Shown here piece by piece: positions 9,004 through 30,437 of a stretch of DNA of 30,579 nucleotides. The notes beneath the pieces are model-generated. The model was given only the letters and a program-made list of their open reading frames with translations. It was not told where the DNA came from and ran no database searches. The DNA lies in the IMG/VR virus record IMGVR_UViG_3300036980_000246, positions 1 through 30,579 of that record. One strand, written 5' to 3'. Origin of the DNA: a virus. The translations under genes and the position numbers were made by a program. Position 1 is the first letter of the stretch, and the number at the start of each line of letters is the position of its first letter.

Positions 9004-9678
9004 TTATATATGTTTCCAAGTATTTCTGTTTAATATAGATTTTATATTACTCCTTGAAATTCCGTAAATTTCAGCTAATTTTAAATAAGTATATTCTTTA
9101 GTTTTATACATTTTTCTAATAGATATTACGTCTTCTTCATTTAGTTTTGCAGTAACATTTTCAGATCCTCTTTTTGCAGAACCTATCATTTTATTACGAG
9201 TGTCTTCAGAAATAGTTTTACCGTATCTTGAATTTTTATCTCCTTTACTAGCCTCTGACATTTTTAATCTTGTCTCCTTACTTGTGACCTTTCCTTTGTG
9301 AAATTCAGAAACTTTTCTCTTTTGTTCTTCAGAAATTATTTTTCCTTTATTAGGAATACTCATTTTTAATTTAGCTTCATCTGAATGAATTAATCCTAAA
9401 CAACCATCTCCACCATCGGTCATGTTAACTAACATACCATTATTGGTATCTTTTCTACCATATAGAGATATAAATTCTTTTTCTTTCTCTTTTATAAAAT
9501 TATAATCTTCGTGTTCAAATAGTATCTCTACTTCATAGTCAGTCTTATTAACTATTTTATTCCAGTGATCATTTCTACTTTTTTTTGAATTAGCTCTATA
9601 ATAATTACTATCTATGCCTATTCCTATGTAGAATGGTATGTTTTTGTCTAATCTAATATGTCTATATAAATATGCCAC
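9004..9678 (-). CDS. GIY-YIG homing endonuclease with NUMOD3 repeats, 224 aa
   Basis: The N-terminal domain has the GIY-YIG pattern: 'LYRHIRL' as the first strand and 'FYIGIGID' (16-23) as the second, followed by a Glu-rich helix with 'EKEFISLYG'. Residues about 105-160 hold three NUMOD3-type DNA-binding repeats ('NKGKIISEEQKRK', 'HKGKVTSKETRLKM', 'YGKTISEDTRNKM'), and the C-terminus is a helix-turn-helix ('YLKLAEIYGISRSNIKSIL'). This is a free-standing homing endonuclease that copies itself into related phages by cutting alleles lacking it. It sits between terL and portal without disrupting either. The start is a GTG whose first base is the last base of the terL TAG. The gene is visibly more A/T-rich than its neighbours, a sign of recent arrival. 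Confidence 0.85.
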   Translation of the reverse strand: MAYLYRHIRLDKNIPFYIGIGIDSNYYRANSKKSRNDHWNKIVNKTDYEVEILFEHEDYNFIKEKEKEFISLYGRKDTNNGMLVNMTDGGDGCLGLIHSDEAKLKMSIPNKGKIISEEQKRKVSEFHKGKVTSKETRLKMSEASKGDKNSRYGKTISEDTRNKMIGSAKRGSENVTAKLNEEDVISIRKMYKTKEYTYLKLAEIYGISRSNIKSILNRNTWKHI

Positions 9679-12971: not shown

Positions 12972-15900
12972 TTATGGTAATATTATGTTTCCACCACTAG
13001 TCCATGCTGCGTTGTATGTACTTCCTTGTAACTCTATAACTGTAGTGTTTACTACTGTAACTGTCCATGTTCCATTTGCATTTGTTGTTCCTCCAACGCC
13101 ATAGATATAAACTGAGTTCCCTGTTACAAATCCATGAGCGCTAGTTGTTGTAACTCTAATTAATCCTCCGTTATTTGATGTTCCAGAAACTGTTAATAGT
13201 CCATCTGCTATTATCCAGTTATTTGGTGCTGATGTTAACACTGCTCTTTTTACGCTTGATGCCGCTGTATACTTAGCTGTTCCAAAACTTATGTTTGTTG
13301 AAAGTGGTGATGTTGTGTTCGGTTTAACACTTGGTAATGATCCCCATCCGTTGTATATTGCATCTAGGTTAGTTGATGAGAATGTGGCAGGTAATTTTCC
13401 ACCCATAAAAATACTAAAGTTAGTTACATTAGATACATTCCAAGAACCAATGTTTTGGTTAAAAGCGGTAGCAGAATTAAACATACTATTCATATTAGTC
13501 ACATTACTGACATTCCAAGAACCAATGTTTTGGTTAAAAGCGGTAGCAGAACTAAACATACTATTCATATTAGTCACATTACTGACATTCCAAGAACCAA
13601 TGTTTTGGTTAAAGGCGGTAACACCCTGAAACATATAACTCATATCAGTCACCTGACTCACATTCCAAGACCCAATAGGTTGGTTGAAAGCGTTATTTGT
13701 TGCAAACATAGAACCCATAGTTACTGATGCGGCAGGTGATGTATTTATGTTCCAACCATTTATGCCTGTTAATCCTGTTACTGGATTTGTATTTGTATTG
13801 CTTCCATTAGTAAAAGCATCCGCATTATAAAACATAGCATCCATGCTAGTAACACTACCAACATTCCATTTACTAAGGTCTTGGTTAAATGAACCATTTG
13901 ATAAAAACATATTACCCATAGCAGTCACTTTACTCACATCCCAATCTCCAATATATCTATTGAAGTTAGTATTCTGGAACATTTGATTTGTAACCACTGA
14001 TGCAGCAGTTGTACCTATGTTCCAACCGTTTATACCAGTTCTTGAAGTAATAGGATTAGTAACTGAATTATCACCATTGTTAAATGCTGTTGCTGCACTA
14101 AACATACCAGTGAATATTGTTACCTTACCAACATTCCATCTACTAAGATCTCGATTAAATTGAGTTGCACCTTGAAACATACTACCCATATTTGTCACAT
14201 TGCCAACATTCCAAGAGCTAATATCTTGATTAAATAAAACGGCATTTTGAAACATTGAAAGCATCCATGTAACACTAGTTGTGTTCCAATTACTCAATGG
14301 CCTATTAAACTTAGAAGCACCCAAAAACACACCGTACATATTTCCTGTTACAACAATATTCCAACCATCTAATCCAGCTCTTAAAGTTACAGGATTTATA
14401 TTTGTGTTTAATCCATTTTCAAAATTAATAGCATTAGAAAATATACCACTAAGTGTATTCACTTTAGATACGTCCCAACCACTAATATCTCTGTTGAAAG
14501 CACTAGCACTAGCAAACATAGATTCTAAAGTAATTGTGCCTGTTACACTTCCTCCTATATTCCAATTATTTATAGGTGCTGAATCATCACCATTTCTAAA
14601 ATTAGATGCACCTTGGAACATACTTTGAAATGTTGTCACCTTACTAACATCCCATGGTGTAGTACCTGTTCCTAGGTTAGAGTTAAATGCAGTAGCACCT
14701 TTGAACATACTGAGCATATTTACTGATGCTGCTGTATTGTTTATATTCCAAGATAATTGATTTCCTATACCATCACCAGATGCAAATCCATTATTAAATG
14801 CCGTTGCACTTTCAAACATATTTTGAAAATCAGTTAATTTACTAACATTCCAATTAGATAAGTTTTGATTAAATGCTATAGCACGTCTAAACATATAACC
14901 AATACTTACTGCTGCTGCAGCAGTATTTAAATTCCAGTTGCCAATAGGTTGATTAAAGGCATTAGCATCAGAAAACATACTACTCATGTTAGTCACCTTA
15001 GACATTGTAGATACGTTACCTGGCGTACTTCTTTCCCAGTTTCCAATTGGTTGATTAAACACTCTTGCATCATAAAGCATCTGTTGCATAGTAGTTACGT
15101 TACTAACATTCCAATTGCTAATATCTGAATTAAATTTATAACAACCTCTAAATAATTGAAATGCATTTATTAATGAAGATGTATTCCATTCATTTATTCT
15201 ACCAATAGTGGTTATTTCAATACAATCATAAAATGCAGATGATAAATCAGTCACTCCAGTTAAATCAGGAATATCAGTTATTCCAGACATAGTTACATAA
15301 GAACAACTATTAAAAGAACCTGCTCCTAATTTTAATTTACCCCAACTAGATATAGACCTTAGTTTTAATCTATCGTTAAAACCCCCATTTCCAAATCCAA
15401 AAGAAAAATTATCTCCAAATACCCTTACTGTATATGTGTCTGGTGCTGCATATGTGTGTATTCTATTTGCAACAATATTACTATTATTCATAGTACTATA
15501 CTGACCATCACCCCAGTCTACCCATATTGATTTTCCAGAAGCAATACTTATTGGTAGTTGTATTTGATTAGTTGCTGATGAACTTTGTTTTATACTTAGC
15601 GATACGGTTCCAACAAAACTAGATGATGGTGTAATTGATAGTGTAGCCGCAGTTTTTGGAGTTAGGGTTACTATAATATTGGTTCCAGGATTTAATGAAG
15701 CACTAGATACACCTCCGAAGTTTATTACAAATGTACCTGTTCCAGTAGCTGTGTACTGCATTCTATAACTCTGTCCTGCAGTAGGAACTAAACCAAACTG
15801 CAGTACAGCTGTACTTCCTGCAGTGTGAGTGTATCCACCATTTAAAAGACTTCCTCCAACAGAGGCAAGTGCCCAATTAGTTAAAGTTCCAGTTGCAGTT

Positions 15901-16010
15901 ATACCAGCTAGCTCTGTTATACTAACTGCCCCAGCTTGATCTGTCTTCCAAACAGATTGGAATAAACTTAATTTTTTTGTTCCGTATGTTTGAAACGCTA
16001 CTCTATTCAT
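12972..16010 (-). CDS. BspA-like (DUF285 repeat) adhesin / tail-fibre protein, 1012 aa
   Basis: A 1012-residue surface protein. Residues about 1-140 form a Thr/Ser/Gly-rich beta region that looks like a carbohydrate-binding domain. Next comes a PKD-like segment ('WVDWGDGQYSTM' about 160, 'HTYAAPDTYTVRVFG'). Residues about 240-900 are BspA/DUF285 leucine-rich repeats, recurring as 'MFxxATAFNQxIGSWNVSxVT'. The last 75 residues ('GLIRVTTTSAHGFVTGNSVY', 'NGTWTVTVVNTTVIELQGST') are a small beta domain common at phage fibre ends. DUF285 repeats are known from Bacteroidota adhesins, so the phage may use it to contact host or mucosal ligands. No signal peptide is present, as expected for a virion protein. 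It follows a fibre gene with one spacer base. Confidence 0.8.
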   Translation of the reverse strand: MNRVAFQTYGTKKLSLFQSVWKTDQAGAVSITELAGITATGTLTNWALASVGGSLLNGGYTHTAGSTAVLQFGLVPTAGQSYRMQYTATGTGTFVINFGGVSSASLNPGTNIIVTLTPKTAATLSITPSSSFVGTVSLSIKQSSSATNQIQLPISIASGKSIWVDWGDGQYSTMNNSNIVANRIHTYAAPDTYTVRVFGDNFSFGFGNGGFNDRLKLRSISSWGKLKLGAGSFNSCSYVTMSGITDIPDLTGVTDLSSAFYDCIEITTIGRINEWNTSSLINAFQLFRGCYKFNSDISNWNVSNVTTMQQMLYDARVFNQPIGNWERSTPGNVSTMSKVTNMSSMFSDANAFNQPIGNWNLNTAAAAVSIGYMFRRAIAFNQNLSNWNVSKLTDFQNMFESATAFNNGFASGDGIGNQLSWNINNTAASVNMLSMFKGATAFNSNLGTGTTPWDVSKVTTFQSMFQGASNFRNGDDSAPINNWNIGGSVTGTITLESMFASASAFNRDISGWDVSKVNTLSGIFSNAINFENGLNTNINPVTLRAGLDGWNIVVTGNMYGVFLGASKFNRPLSNWNTTSVTWMLSMFQNAVLFNQDISSWNVGNVTNMGSMFQGATQFNRDLSRWNVGKVTIFTGMFSAATAFNNGDNSVTNPITSRTGINGWNIGTTAASVVTNQMFQNTNFNRYIGDWDVSKVTAMGNMFLSNGSFNQDLSKWNVGSVTSMDAMFYNADAFTNGSNTNTNPVTGLTGINGWNINTSPAASVTMGSMFATNNAFNQPIGSWNVSQVTDMSYMFQGVTAFNQNIGSWNVSNVTNMNSMFSSATAFNQNIGSWNVSNVTNMNSMFNSATAFNQNIGSWNVSNVTNFSIFMGGKLPATFSSTNLDAIYNGWGSLPSVKPNTTSPLSTNISFGTAKYTAASSVKRAVLTSAPNNWIIADGLLTVSGTSNNGGLIRVTTTSAHGFVTGNSVYIYGVGGTTNANGTWTVTVVNTTVIELQGSTYNAAWTSGGNIILP
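13435..13659. repeat. Three tandem 75-bp near-identical repeats within the BspA-like gene
   Basis: The word ACATTCCAAGAACC recurs at 13435 (minus its first base context), 13510 and 13585 with an exact 75-base period, matching the 25-residue DUF285 unit. The first two units differ at very few positions, while units elsewhere in the gene have diverged. This points to recent tandem duplication and a site prone to unit gain or loss. Confidence 0.85.
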
Positions 16011-18778: not shown

Positions 18779-21700
18779 TATACAAAGTATTGAATTGTTA
18801 CGTATGCGTATCTATAAGCAGCAGCGGTCCTTGTTATTACTATTTCACTAGCTGTATTTGTTGAGTTTCTCCTTAATGCACAGAAAGCAGCATTACTTGT
18901 CGCTACTACTTTAGATCCTATCATCATGCCGCTTCCATAGTTAATAACTTCATTAGCAGCTATGACAGATGTAGGAAGAGCTGGAGTTGGAGCAGTTGAT
19001 GGTAGTTCTAAAGTTACAGATGTTAAAGTAGCCGCTCCCGCAACACCATAAGATAAGTTAATTATTAACGTTACTAAATTACCAACTTGCGAAAGCGAAT
19101 ATGTATGTTGAGGATTTGTACTTGGAGCAGTACCAGGTGACCAAACAATAGCTCCTGAATAAGTTTGATTTGTTAAATTCTCAAATGGTTGTTCAGTTGG
19201 TGTTGCACTTGCATTTGTATTATTTGCTAATATCGTATAAGCGCCTTGGGTACTTACTACATTATCTAAAAAATAAGCTCCGTTGTATACCTTTACAAAT
19301 GATACTCCTCCTGTTGTACTTAAAGATGATATAGATGTAAGATTTGCATTAATCGGTTGCTTGCCATTTAATTGCCCTTGTATTGCACTTGTAACGCCAC
19401 TAACATATTTTAATTCTACTAATGATGGATAACCATCCGCTGTAGTTAAACTTTTAATACTTTTATTTGAATCAAAAGAGGCTATTGTAGAAGTTACTTC
19501 TGAGTTAATTACTAACCCTAAATCATTCATTTTAACTCTTTCAATTGATGAAGAACCATTACTAGTATAAAATATTAAATCAGTTTTGCCAGAACCTCCA
19601 GTGCCAATACCATTTTGTGTTATCGCTTTTATTTGAGCAGTTGAATAAGCAATACTGTTATCATCTTTTGCAGAAAATTGTAATGTTCCTACAGTATTTC
19701 CAGCTACAATATTAGTATTAGTATTTCTTATATCAAATACTCCGCCAGTTGTAGAACCTACTGTAGCTTGCGGTAGTAATCCATAGGTAGGAGTCCCAAC
19801 AACCCCATCTCCAAGAATAGTTTGACTACTGAATGTTTTACTTCCAGCAAAAGTCTGTAATCCGATTGAAACCAATCCCTTTTGAGTTGCGCTTGCATCT
19901 GGAATTAAATCAACAGCTGCCGAATGTTCCCATAGTGAAGCAGCATCATTCCAGTATAATATCTCATTGTTTAATGCTGGAGTTTTCTCAACATCTGCTA
20001 AATCTTTTAAATAAATATTAGGTATTATTGCAGAAGATATCGAAGCCGTTCCTCTTACTGGGTCATCTCCGCCAAATAGAAATTCATACGAAGCTCCAGA
20101 ACCACCCCCTGTTTTAACACCATAAAATTTTAGAACTACCCTGTCTGTACTTAAGAAAATTCCATTGTTCCATAATGCTATTGAGATATACTCAACATAA
20201 ATTCCGCCATTAGCTGGTACAACAACTGGAGAACTATCTGCTATTTTCGTTTCAACTCCTGATATATCTCTCTTATAGATACTGAAGAAGAAGTCTGCCC
20301 CACTAGATGTAGAACCTCCTGTTCTTCTTATCTTACCAATTACTGAAAAATTAAATACTCCAGGATTACCTAATAAGATACTAGGATCACTAATTACTGC
20401 CCCGCAAAATGTAGGTGATGCCAGAGTACCAGTTATCGTTGGTGTTAGAACATCAACTGCTGTAGTGTTATATCTTGTGTCAGTTATATTTCTAACTAAC
20501 GCAGTATAACCAGCTATAACAGGATCAGGTGACGTGGTAGCATATAAATCTAATGTAGATGGTAAGTCAGCAGAAGTTAAGTATGTGTTATTATCAACAG
20601 ATCCGTCAGCCTTTAAAAACTGAAAGTCAAATCCGCCACTTTTAATTAATTTTGTAGCAGTTAATTCCCCCTGTTGGTTTATGGTTAGTTTATTAACTGC
20701 ATCTTTATTTATTTCAATAGTGTTTCCAGTTGATGACCCACCGCTATTTATTACAAGTCCCTTAGAAGTTGATCCTAAATTTAATGATGCGTTAATTCCT
20801 TCGTTACTAGTGACAAATAATGCAGTTCCGATATTAGATTGCAAAAATCCTCCATACGTATTGCCAATTCCAAATATACCAGAATATCCACCTTCACCAT
20901 ATAGACCAATACCACCACCTAATCCGTCTTCTCCAATACCCCAAACACCTGGAGCACCTTGCCCATAAACACCTGTCCCTTGTATGGCTCCACTGTTGGA
21001 ATTAACATTACCATTAACCCCTTTAATGGCATACGTATCTATATTATCACTTACAAAATCCCAATTTATTAACGTACTTTGGATTCCGTTAAACGGAACA
21101 CTATCTCTATATACTGTAATAATATTATCAGTAGTTGCCCCTAGGTCAGTAACTTGTTGAAGGTTTTGGTCACCAGTATTTGTGCCAGTGATTGCTGCTA
21201 ACTTATTCTTTTCAGTAGTTGTGTAATTATTTAAAGTAGCACCAGCCAAAGTTCCGTCTCCTAATGGAACAGTCGCATCATCGCCTGTGCTGGAATTAAT
21301 AGTAAAGTTAGTAGATGTTTGAGATGTAGATAAGTTTGTATTTCCTCCAATTGATGACAACGCAACAGTTGAACCGTTATCTAATAAAATATTAGTTCCT
21401 GTGCCTCCAATTTTTATAAATGAATTAGCAGTTATAGAATTAGTGGTACTTGATCCAATATCTGTAACCTCTTGAAGATCCTGAGATCCTCCTCCGCTAC
21501 TAATATCTATAAGGGATATCATGTAGTCCTCGTCCTCCTCTATAAATCCGTTTCCTTCTATAAACTCTACGTTTACAACAAAGAAGTTAGGATCTTCTAG
21601 ATACTCTTCTACAGAATTTATCTTGTAACTTCCGAACAGGTTTATATTCTTAGCCTTGTATAACAAAACATTTGTACCAACCAAAAAATCAAAGAACTCT

Positions 21701-28921: not shown

Positions 28922-28953
28922 TTTGGTGGTTTAAAAACTTATTATAATATTTG
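28922..28953 (+). promoter_or_regulatory. Rightward Bacteroidota-type promoter (TTTG-N19-TAATATTTG)
   Basis: TTTG at 28922-28925 is followed after 19 bases by TAATATTTG (28945-28953), a near-consensus -33/-7 pair with one extra base in the -7 box (TAnnnTTTG rather than TAnnTTTG). A start near 28958-28960 would precede the leader RNA and the three hammerhead ribozymes. It is the only good rightward promoter seen ahead of that operon. Confidence 0.65.
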
Positions 28954-28957
28954 CAGT

Positions 28958-29144
28958 GTTCAAATGAACGAGTGGAGTTAACCACTGATTAAATCGGGCT
29001 ACATCTTCCCTACTAGATGTTATCGAGACCACAGAGAATAAGTGGCGGAGGTGTAAGTGTCACCATAACCACTCTACTGCTGTCGCAGGAGGTTAATTAC
29101 CGAACGACCATGAGCTCCTCAAATAGAGACAGACATGAAACGTA
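28958..29144 (+). ncRNA. Structured 5' leader RNA released by hammerhead cleavage (candidate ncRNA)
   Basis: From the inferred start to the predicted cleavage site (29144/29145) lie about 185 bases that do not look coding. Several hairpins are visible: AGTGG..CCACT (28971-28986), ACATCT..AGATGT (29001-29020), GGTG..CACC (about 29050-29064), and a longer one whose tip is CTGC-TGTC-GCAG (about 29076-29087) with the flanks CTC/GAG and TAAC/GTTA. The ribozyme would give it a precise 3' end with a 2',3'-cyclic phosphate. I could not match it to any known RNA class. Function is unknown. Confidence 0.5.
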
Positions 29145-29192
29145 CATGGATGTGTTATCCATGCTGATGAGCCACAGAATGGCGAAACGTTT
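29138..29192 (+). ncRNA. Hammerhead ribozyme HHR-1 (type III)
   Basis: All parts of a type III hammerhead are present. Stem III: AAACGT (29138-29143) pairs with ACGTTT (29187-29192), 6 bp including the A15.1-U16.1 pair. Cleavage triplet GTA, with cleavage predicted after A29144. Stem I: CATGGAT (29145-29151) pairs with ATCCATG (29157-29163), 7 bp, loop GTGTT. Core CTGATGA (29164-29170). Stem II: GCCA (29171-29174) with TGGC (29180-29183), loop CAGAA. Core GAAA (29184-29187). Every helix is perfectly paired and every core base fits the consensus. It precedes the ATG at 29206. Confidence 0.92.
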
Positions 29193-29205
29193 AAAACTAT
29201 TTATC

Positions 29206-29400
29206 ATGACATCAATTATCAACAAGGTTAACGAAATTACAAACGATAACTTCACTAAGCTAGTTAAAGCTAGAAAAAATGCGGGAGCCTGCTTCTTAAT
29301 AGTAGCACTAGCAAATGGAGGCGCTATTTATGGAAGCTACACATCAAGTGCAGTGTATTACATAAACGAAATAGGCGATGCATTCGGATTTAGAAGGTAG
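29206..29400 (+). CDS. Small protein with one hydrophobic segment, 64 aa
   Basis: The frame is open from 29017, but I start it at ATG 29206 ('MTSIINKVNEITNDNFTKLV') because the upstream 63 codons overlay the hammerhead HHR-1 and structured leader, and because the bases before this ATG (AAAACTATTTATC) resemble the leaders before the next two post-ribozyme genes. The 64-residue protein has a basic helix (KARKNAG), one hydrophobic stretch ('ACFLIVALANGGAIYG', about 28-43) and ends 'YYINEIGDAFGFRR'. Likely a small membrane-associated early protein; no family recognised. Its TAG stop shares its G with stem I of HHR-2. Confidence 0.65.
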   Translation: MTSIINKVNEITNDNFTKLVKARKNAGACFLIVALANGGAIYGSYTSSAVYYINEIGDAFGFRR

Positions 29401-29449
29401 GTTAACTGATGAGTCCTAAATGGACGAAATGCCGTGAGGCATCTTAACC
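29400..29449 (+). ncRNA. Hammerhead ribozyme HHR-2 (type I)
   Basis: A complete type I hammerhead. Stem I: GGTTAA (29400-29405) with TTAACC (29444-29449), 6 bp. Core CTGATGA (29406-29412). Stem II: GTCC (29413-29416) with GGAC (29422-29425), loop TAAAT. GAAA (29426-29429). Stem III: ATGCC (29429-29433) with GGCAT (29438-29442), loop GTGA (a GNRA tetraloop). Cleavage base C29443, so cleavage falls between 29443 and 29444, 22 bases before the next ATG. The first G of stem I is the G of the preceding gene's TAG. All helices are perfect. Confidence 0.95.
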
Positions 29450-29465
29450 AATAAACATATTTAAC

Positions 29466-29591
29466 ATGAACATTTTTGAAAAAGTTTTAGTAGCATCGCT
29501 TACCACGTTATTCGTGGCAGGATTTGTAAGAGTAGTAATCGGAGTATTAACGGGAGAGTGCTCCAACATAACGTTTGGAATTTATGGGTAG
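29466..29591 (+). CDS. Small membrane peptide, 41 aa
   Basis: ATG 29466 gives 'MNIFEKVLVASLTTLFVAGF' then 'VRVVIGVLTGECSNITFGIY' G. Residues 7-29 form one hydrophobic helix. The start lies 22 bases after the predicted HHR-2 cleavage site, preceded by ATATTTAAC. It overlaps the next gene (29584) by 8 bases. Too short for family recognition; single-pass membrane peptides are common among early phage genes. Confidence 0.6.
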   Translation: MNIFEKVLVASLTTLFVAGFVRVVIGVLTGECSNITFGIYG

Positions 29592-29661
29592 TAACTTAAA
29601 AGACATCGGGCTTTGCCTATTACTATGGGCAGTATTTATAACTTTAATATCTATAATATGA
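29584..29661 (+). CDS. Tiny membrane peptide, 25 aa
   Basis: ATG 29584, inside the end of the 41-residue gene, gives 'MGSNLKDIGLCLLLWAVFIT' then LISII: a single hydrophobic helix (about 9-25). The ATGA at 29658-29661 links it to the next start. Overlaps on both sides, in the style of translational coupling, and the hydrophobic character support it; its size makes it uncertain. Confidence 0.45.
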   Translation: MGSNLKDIGLCLLLWAVFITLISII

Positions 29662-29795
29662 ACAAAGAAATCTTATATAGTCTAGAAGGCTATCCAATTA
29701 ACCCTAAACTATACGGTCATTGGAACAAGTTAACACAGAGCGAAAAGAATAACTTGTATGCAAGGTACGTATTTCTATGCGAACAAGAGAGGTAG
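29658..29795 (+). CDS. Small unknown protein, 45 aa
   Basis: Started at ATG 29658, the first base of an ATGA overlap with the previous stop ('MNKEILYSLEGYPINPKLYG' then 'HWNKLTQSEKNNLYARYVFL' and CEQER). The frame is open from 29613, but the coupled ATG is preferred. Soluble, helical second half. The stop is TAG at 29793-29795, whose G is the first base of HHR-3 stem I. No family recognised. Confidence 0.6.
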   Translation: MNKEILYSLEGYPINPKLYGHWNKLTQSEKNNLYARYVFLCEQER

Positions 29796-29844
29796 GTTAA
29801 CTGACGAGATCTAAATGATCGAAACTCCTTCGGGAGTCTTAACC
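29795..29844 (+). ncRNA. Hammerhead ribozyme HHR-3 (type I)
   Basis: A complete type I hammerhead. Stem I: GGTTAA (29795-29800) with TTAACC (29839-29844). Core CTGACGA (29801-29807, N7 = C as allowed). Stem II: GATC (29808-29811) with GATC (29817-29820), loop TAAAT. GAAA (29821-29824). Stem III: ACTCC (29824-29828) with GGAGT (29833-29837), loop TTCG (a stable UUCG tetraloop). Cleavage base C29838, cut before 29839, 22 bases ahead of ATG 29861. Stem I and the stem II loop are identical to HHR-2 while stems II and III differ with base-pair-preserving changes. Confidence 0.95.
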
Positions 29845-29860
29845 ATTAAATATATTTAAG

Positions 29861-30067
29861 ATGAAAGATTCATTGGCTTTATTATCCACCATAGACGTGG
29901 AAAGATTTTATGTGTGCTCGGTTTGGGAGCGCGAGGTGACCTTGCAAGGGATTGTAAGTACAGACCTGATACAATACTGCAAGGGATTGGGTGTTGAGGA
30001 ATTTACAGTGAGTGACCTTGGTCATTTAAAGGCAGAGATTGGTAAACTTAAAATAGTACTAACATAA
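29861..30067 (+). CDS. Small unknown protein, 68 aa
   Basis: First gene after HHR-3. ATG 29861 gives 'MKDSLALLSTIDVERFYVCS' then 'VWEREVTLQGIVSTDLIQYC', a mixed alpha/beta soluble protein ending 'AEIGKLKIVLT'. The 22-base leader, starting at the predicted cleavage site and ending ATATTTAAG, matches that of the gene after HHR-2 at 19 of 22 positions. Its stop TAA shares the A with the next ATG (TAATG). No family recognised; the 'W-REVTLQG----LI-Y' pattern suggests a small phage accessory protein. Confidence 0.65.
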   Translation: MKDSLALLSTIDVERFYVCSVWEREVTLQGIVSTDLIQYCKGLGVEEFTVSDLGHLKAEIGKLKIVLT

Positions 30068-30252
30068 TGAAAAAGTCAATCTATCAGCACATCAACGAGG
30101 CGTACAAGGACGAGGTTCCTACATTAGAGCAAGTGACCGCAATTATTAAGGAGAATGCTCCTAGCATATCGTCTCCCGATCAATCGTTTGATGAGACCGT
30201 ACTATCAATTTACAATAACTATAAAAACTTTATCGCATCATGGACAAAATAG
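30067..30252 (+). CDS. Small unknown protein, 61 aa
   Basis: ATG 30067, overlapping the previous stop (TAATG), gives 'MKKSIYQHINEAYKDEVPTL' then 'EQVTAIIKENAPSISSPDQS' and a helical end 'YNNYKNFIASWTK'. Soluble, helical and acidic in part. It overlaps the next gene by 13 bases. No family recognised. Confidence 0.6.
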   Translation: MKKSIYQHINEAYKDEVPTLEQVTAIIKENAPSISSPDQSFDETVLSIYNNYKNFIASWTK

Positions 30253-30437
30253 AACAAGCGAAGGCTATACTTAGAGAGGCAGGTTACTTTGTAGATAACC
30301 TATGGCACATCGACGATGTAAAAAATAATCACGAGTGCACAGACGATGAGGCTTATGACATACTAGAACAAGCCCTGACTAGTGATTGGATTACAGAACA
30401 AATATTCAGCGAGATAGATGATACTACAAAAATATAG
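30240..30437 (+). CDS. Small acidic protein, 65 aa
   Basis: ATG 30240 gives 'MDKIEQAKAILREAGYFVDN' then 'LWHIDDVKNNHECTDDEAYD' and 'ILEQALTSDWITEQIFSEID'. The 'AK-IL-EAGYFVDNLWHIDDV----CTD-EAYDIL--AL' pattern is typical of small proteins widely seen in phages of Bacteroidota; function unknown. It overlaps the upstream gene by 13 bases and the next gene by 20 bases. Confidence 0.68.
   Translation: MDKIEQAKAILREAGYFVDNLWHIDDVKNNHECTDDEAYDILEQALTSDWITEQIFSEIDDTTKI

Follow-up and report, generated by a model that had tools for sequence, protein, structure and literature searches.

Near the right-hand end of the window, by which is meant the whole stretch of DNA analysed here (30,579 nucleotides, positions 1 to 30,579 of IMG/VR virus record IMGVR_UViG_3300036980_000246), three coding-strand hammerhead ribozymes lie within ~700 bases at the borders of small genes, an arrangement that corresponds to the definition of clustered phage arrays (at least two hammerheads close together). 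The best explanation, and one that we regard as probable, is that the region forms an early transcription unit, punctuated by ribozymes, in a lytic podovirus of Bacteroidota type. As the best reading of the sequence, such a self-punctuating transcript would account for the order of the elements, their spacing and their covarying stems, cleavage being predicted. The features of the region are as follows.

28922-28953, plus strand: promoter-like element recognised from sequence, with TTTG at 28922-28925 and the AATATTTGC region (TTTG at 28950-28953).
28960-29144, plus strand: putative structured noncoding leader RNA, a module common to relatives, with a 3′ end that type III cleavage would generate.
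29138-29192, plus strand: type III hammerhead, predicted cut 29144/29145 (GUA^C), body predicted to be kept on the downstream RNA (descriptor scan, local model, fold, covariation in alignment).
29206-29400, plus strand: small ORF A, 64 aa, no family match.
29400-29449, plus strand: type I hammerhead, predicted cut 29443/29444 (AUC^U), body predicted to be kept on the upstream RNA (descriptor scan, local model, fold).
29466-29591, plus strand: small ORF B, 41 aa, membrane-like, ATG 22 nt past the cut.
29584-29661, plus strand: small ORF C, 25 aa, hydrophobic, overlapping B and D.
29658-29795, plus strand: small ORF D, 45 aa, TAG stop ending on the first base of the next hammerhead.
29795-29844, plus strand: type I hammerhead, predicted cut 29838/29839 (GUC^U) (descriptor scan, local model, fold).
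29861-30067, plus strand: small ORF E, 68 aa, ATG 22 nt past the cut.
Beyond ORF E, plus strand: overlapping ORFs at 30067-30252 and 30240-30437, then one running off the contig end.

The first-pass annotation had claimed three complete hammerheads on the plus strand, one of type III and two of type I, and this was confirmed by an independent descriptor scan of both strands (core CTGANGA, GAAA, A15.1-U16.1, H17 and three stems of at least 3 bp), which found no other hammerhead in the 30,579 bases and reproduced the annotated cut positions at the coordinates given above. The invariant core (C3 U4 G5 A6 N7 G8 A9 / G12 A13 A14 / A15.1-U16.1 / H17) is present at all three sites, and, when each of the three sequences was folded in isolation, the hammerhead was both the minimum free energy and the centroid fold. 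When the window was dinucleotide-shuffled 1500 times and both strands were scanned, one hammerhead appeared in seven shuffles and two in none; no shuffle yielded stems that were all of at least 4 bp. Conserved loops (GTGTT and CAGAA in type III, and a loop II pattern in type I) fit, at the sequence level, a candidate tertiary contact between stem I and stem II.

Nowhere in the window does any Rfam family, the hammerhead models included, attain its gathering score; the best hammerhead scores were 22.4 bits against a gathering threshold of 48.5 for Hammerhead_3 and 16.8 against 34 for Hammerhead_1, with a weak match of RAGATH-1-hammerhead at the third site (18.6 against 56.3 bits). At the gathering thresholds Rfam likewise calls no hammerhead in 13 array loci, and some type III relatives come near the Hammerhead_3 cut-off (43.9 against 48.5 bits in L173). 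The annotation had named low covariance-model scores at all three sites as refutation of its own reading, and by that measure the reading would fall, since the Rfam scores were low at all three. However, Rfam gathering scores were rejected as the arbiter of presence, for they miss the whole family, yet local models and covariation support hammerheads. A local type I model, seeded with metagenomic relatives and without the window, gave 65.0 and 63.0 bits at the two type I sites, and a local type III model, whose seed included the window, gave 85.4 bits. Because the local models score high and the relatives covary, the low Rfam scores represent the wrong test.

The conservation of the fold was assessed with a type I DNA pattern in which only stem I and the core are fixed, so that the unselected stems II and III provide a fair test. 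Among the 133 unique type I pattern matches listed, stem II reached at least 4 bp in 78% and stem III in 96%, against 7% and 3% in shuffled sequences, and many of the matches that failed this test still pair once a single extra base before stem II is allowed for. An extra base at this place, usually T, following CTGANGA (CTGANGA-T-GG..CC-GAAA) was observed as a recurring variant of the type I core (L021, L039, L053, L059, L089, L096, L109, L124 and others). An alignment of 23 type I copies gave a covariation score of 0.539 against 0.115 when shuffled, with both sides changed in 10 of 16 pairs; the percentage of paired positions in this alignment is not independent evidence, because the copies were chosen by the descriptor. 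Both sides were changed in 9 of 17 pairs in an alignment of 15 type III sequences. These alignments, together with the pattern matches and folds, indicate that the three helices round the core are conserved by compensatory changes. It was also observed that, in some type I copies (L033:1565, L036:8505, L038:4155, L043:5826 and L046:5524), stem III forms a long G+C hairpin with TTTTATC behind it, the whole resembling an intrinsic terminator built into the ribozyme.

The position of the ribozymes relative to the genes was consistent among relatives. In 129 of 164 type I copies, compared with 8.8% at random, the upstream stop codon falls between -12 and +15 nt relative to the ribozyme 5′ end; 65 of these 129 stops lie inside the ribozyme, mostly formed by the TAA in stem I or by the TGA in the CTGANGA core. 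In the window, the first G of the hammerhead at 29400-29449 is the last base of the TAG stop of ORF A. The distance from the type I cut to the next ATG has a median of 22 nt (interquartile range 20-25; 164 copies), whereas for type III the median is 61 nt and an upstream stop is nearby in only 1 of 42 copies; the window spacings are 61 nt (type III) and 22 and 22 nt (type I). Judged from this sequence context, the type I copies are gene-boundary elements and the type III copy is a leader element. Thus, regarding the placement first proposed, the two type I hammerheads do lie at gene boundaries, but the type III does not lie between genes and instead separates a noncoding leader from the first gene. 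The interpretation proposed at that stage is partly supported: for processing of a polycistronic transcript at gene boundaries, with cleavage predicted, the comparative anatomy gives good support through the stop at the ribozyme, the constant 22-nt distance from cut to ATG and the covarying stems. The sequence that follows type I stem I contains 54% A and 7% G, with a Shine-Dalgarno-like word in only 24 of 156 sequences. An A-rich leader lacking a Shine-Dalgarno sequence fits translation initiation in Bacteroidota. With the ribozyme body removed, folding of the 5′ region weakened from -20.3 to -3.8 kcal/mol, a change that partly reflects the shorter sequence folded.

The initial reading had missed both a structured leader RNA before the type III hammerhead and the polarity of the array, in which type III precedes type I. 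Bacteroidota promoters follow the pattern TTTG / TAnnTTTG, and the promoter-like element of the window has one mismatch to TAnnTTTG; the early transcript probably starts a few bases 3′ of it. Many relatives have a TATnnTTTGCAGTGTT-like motif 116-236 nt upstream of their type III cut; in them, a leader of 116-236 nt follows a TTTGCAGTGTT-like promoter motif and precedes the type III hammerhead. In the window, the leader can form the hairpins CCAC 29029-29032 / GTGG 29042-29045 and GGTG 29050-29053 / CACC 29061-29064, and the loop AGTG (29056-29059) can pair with CACT (29070-29073), a candidate loop pairing that reads GATG/CATC at the same place in L189. The P1 stem covaries among relatives (CCAC/GTGG, CTAC/GTAG, CAAC/GTTG, TCAC/GTGA). 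The window leader has an architecture sister to a class with a covarying pseudoknot: in the hairpin GGGT-N6-ACTC of that class, the loop pairs with the downstream strand in 9 of 9 distinct combinations, while a permutation control gave a mean of 2.5 and none of 5000 permutations reached the observed value.

A scan with the leader motif only returned 12 stretches, two of which were chance hits that had no hammerhead; in each of the ten genuine matches a type III hammerhead lies ~80-115 nt further downstream, that of L252 having a changed core. The first genes behind type III are, for the most part, unrelated from one phage to another. Since the leader has several architectures, a simple multiple alignment of all leaders fails, and the comparison was made by module only. 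Besides that of the window, unannotated leaders of this structured kind lie at L172:7102-7217, L194:4396-4512, L212:19132-19275 and elsewhere, and a GAATGGCTGTG class was noted in L173, L181 and L191. Neither the window leader nor those of its relatives match any Rfam family. The claim of a structured leader rests on covariation, because the energy of the leader folded by itself does not stand out (z -1.48). A 127-aa ORF running from 29017 through the type III hammerhead was considered and rejected as coding, given that the relatives start at the methionine of MTSII/MKSII and that their leaders vary by structure-preserving changes.

A search with the ORF A protein led to two 64-kb phages (G001 and G002) that have the same arrangement and an ORF A 80-88% identical. 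In G001, the boundary after ORF A (L001:6196-6240) begins hammerhead-like (AGATAGGTTAAC) and its remainder has been replaced, an apparent loss of one boundary ribozyme. The type I DNA pattern occurs in at least 119 stretches in IMG/VR and in 9 stretches in 84,980 bacterial and archaeal genomes. The type III DNA pattern occurs in 75 stretches, but more than half of these are not canonical folds under the descriptor and were left uncounted. The mixed arrays have the order III I (16), III I I (9) or I III I I (1), so that type III comes first in 25 of 26, a polarity that leans largely on one nucleotide-level cluster of related phages, the 54 arrays forming 17 such clusters and the mixed arrays falling into three. 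The largest array comprises seven type I copies on one contig. The genes downstream of hammerheads are small (median 68 aa), and 208 of them form 144 clusters, including 111 singletons. Searches against Pfam and PHROGs returned little for 77 representative relatives of array genes, one of the 77 being ArdC-like, and nothing convincing for the six small ORFs of the window other than the 25-aa ORF C.

The terminase has kin in the Flavobacterium elemo phages (45% identity), in Cellulophaga, Tenacibaculum and Maribacter phages and in the uncultured genome MW202828 (72%). In these kin the early genes point rightward, opposite to the leftward structural genes, which places the array at the head of a presumed early operon. 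A type III element stands in the same place in elemoA, elemoB and elemoD (79.3 bits with the local model), with a type I copy ~1.8 kb downstream of it; in elemoA (NC_055852.1, minus strand) the type III cut is predicted at 19132. Sequence similar to the elemo type III was found in 68 records, and those listed carry no annotation of it. In Cellulophaga phage phi18:3, a type I copy separates gp050 from gp049, and an ardA gene lies a few genes downstream. The descriptor scan and the local models detected no hammerhead in MW202828, the nearest deposited genome; hence the array is not essential to this phage type. For two other arrays, no annotated kin were found in the phage collection searched. 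Elsewhere in the window, an ORF on the minus strand (9004-9678) that by eye resembles a GIY-YIG homing endonuclease is wedged between the terminase and portal genes, and a large DUF285-repeat protein, likely a tail or adhesion protein, is encoded at 12972-16010 on the same strand (Pfam E 2e-154).

From the computed ribozyme folds, covariation, positions, spacing, polarity and co-occurrence with the leader, we infer cleavage, promoter activity and effects on RNA stability and translation. In the proposed mechanism, transcription from a promoter near 28950 would yield a single long RNA running rightward, from which the type III cut would detach a pseudoknotted leader RNA of ~185 nt, while the type I cuts at gene borders would produce short monocistronic or oligocistronic mRNAs. 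Hammerhead chemistry yields 5′-OH and 2′,3′-cyclic-phosphate ends, and the mRNAs would end in these fixed termini. The type III body, nearly all of which lies 3′ of its cut, would remain as hairpins at the 5′ end of the first mRNA, and the type I body, nearly all 5′ of its cut, would remain as hairpins at the 3′ end of the upstream RNA; with type III first and type I after it, the first mRNA would thus carry ribozyme hairpins at both ends. Each later gene would be preceded by ~22 nt of unstructured, A-rich leader, a short stretch suited to translation independent of a Shine-Dalgarno sequence. Ribosomes terminating at a stop inside a ribozyme would hinder its folding, and cleavage in translated mRNA may be partial; through this competition between ribosome and folding, the fraction cut may depend on translation.

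Other explanations read the same evidence differently. That the elements are inactive relics or chance motifs is scarcely credible: the scores below Rfam gathering and the boundary hammerhead lost in G001 would fit, but the perfect cores, the covariation in many phages, the fixed spacing and the shuffle statistics speak against it. It is also quite unlikely that the main role of the hammerheads is to serve as homologous landmarks for the shuffling of small-gene cassettes, RNA cutting being a by-product. The diversity of the downstream genes (144 clusters among 208, 111 of them singletons) and the mostly unrelated first genes after type III agree with such a role, as does the first gene behind type III in L174, by eye a relative of the seventh small ORF of the window (30240-30437), which suggests that small genes move between slots. 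However, stems II and III change in sequence yet keep pairing, which points to selection on RNA folding over DNA homology; a landmark role is in any case not exclusive of the punctuated transcription unit.

A regulated switch, in which the pseudoknotted leader would be an aptamer or protein-binding domain controlling type III cleavage and operon expression and the type I copies would be secondary, appears unlikely. The leader abuts stem III, is structured and covarying, and is conserved together with type III while the first gene is not; against this, the leaders in front of one and the same type III element come in several different architectures, which would be odd for one aptamer, and many arrays have type I copies with neither leader nor type III. 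Very unlikely is the joining of the ends by a host RtcB-like ligase into circular mRNAs of the gene between III and I, or into spliced RNAs. The pair of type III and type I would leave exactly the ends that RtcB-like ligases use, but Perreault et al. found no spliced or circular products of phage hammerheads when they looked for them (PMC3088659), and nothing in the present analysis supports ligation. The ribozyme-punctuated early transcription unit is preferred.

The idea that clusters of hammerheads process transcripts is already known, having been proposed for phages in 2011 by Perreault et al. (PMC3088659), who described clustered prophage examples (among them the A. tumefaciens ardA triple, C. 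scindens and A. caulinodans) and demonstrated the cleavage of three arrays in vitro, that of the A. tumefaciens triple also in E. coli, while noting that some clustered hammerheads may be inactive (PMC3088659). The statement that phage hammerheads usually occur singly, on which the annotation had based novelty, therefore does not hold as an argument for novelty. The present arrays resemble those of Perreault et al. (PMC3088659) in that several close hammerheads flank small phage genes, with the same proposed processing role, and in that some lie near anti-restriction genes, here represented by the ArdC-like protein and the ardA near the phi18:3 hammerhead. They differ from them in occurring mostly in viral contigs rather than prophages, in sharing a GGTTAA/TTAACC stem I, the III-then-I order and the 22-nt rule from cut to ATG, and in having a structured leader before type III and up to seven ribozymes per contig. 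With Rfam Hammerhead_1 (RF00163) and Hammerhead_3 (RF00008) they share the core, the three-helix fold, the cleavage triplet and the permutations, but all copies in the window and in the 13 array loci score below gathering. The RAGATH-1 hammerhead model (RF03152) matches weakly in the window, at the third site (18.6 bits), and also matches in L170 (32.7 bits), although stem II, largely missing from the printed RAGATH-1 consensus, has a normal 4 bp in the window copies. The cultivated kin, Elemovirus (Flavobacterium phages elemoA-F), have the same kind of leader and type III heading the early operon; unlike the window, their array is spaced, with several genes per segment, and their type I stem I is GGCAAA-like, not GGTTAA. 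No report of the present family was found in the open-access literature, and what is new is the Rfam-invisible family itself, its III-then-I polarity, its fixed spacing and its leader RNA.

A broader reading, which we hold only tentatively, is that of a phage module for making a small RNA and finishing mRNAs. Type III would free an undescribed, pseudoknotted functional RNA of ~110-235 nt, the same cut and the type I cuts would leave the ribozyme bodies as structured 5′ and 3′ ends of the first early mRNA, and leader and type III together would form a fixed launch pad before interchangeable small genes across many flavobacterial-type phages.

The role of bacterial and phage hammerheads was still called an open question in a 2017 review (PMC6155905). 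The family provides comparative evidence for a gene-boundary role, in the 22-nt distance, the stops at or inside the ribozyme and the set order of permutations; being missed at the Rfam gathering thresholds, its members probably go under-annotated. The leader RNA may represent a new class of noncoding RNA in phages, and Elemovirus on Flavobacterium sp. BAL314 offers cultivable phages in which the role can be tested directly.
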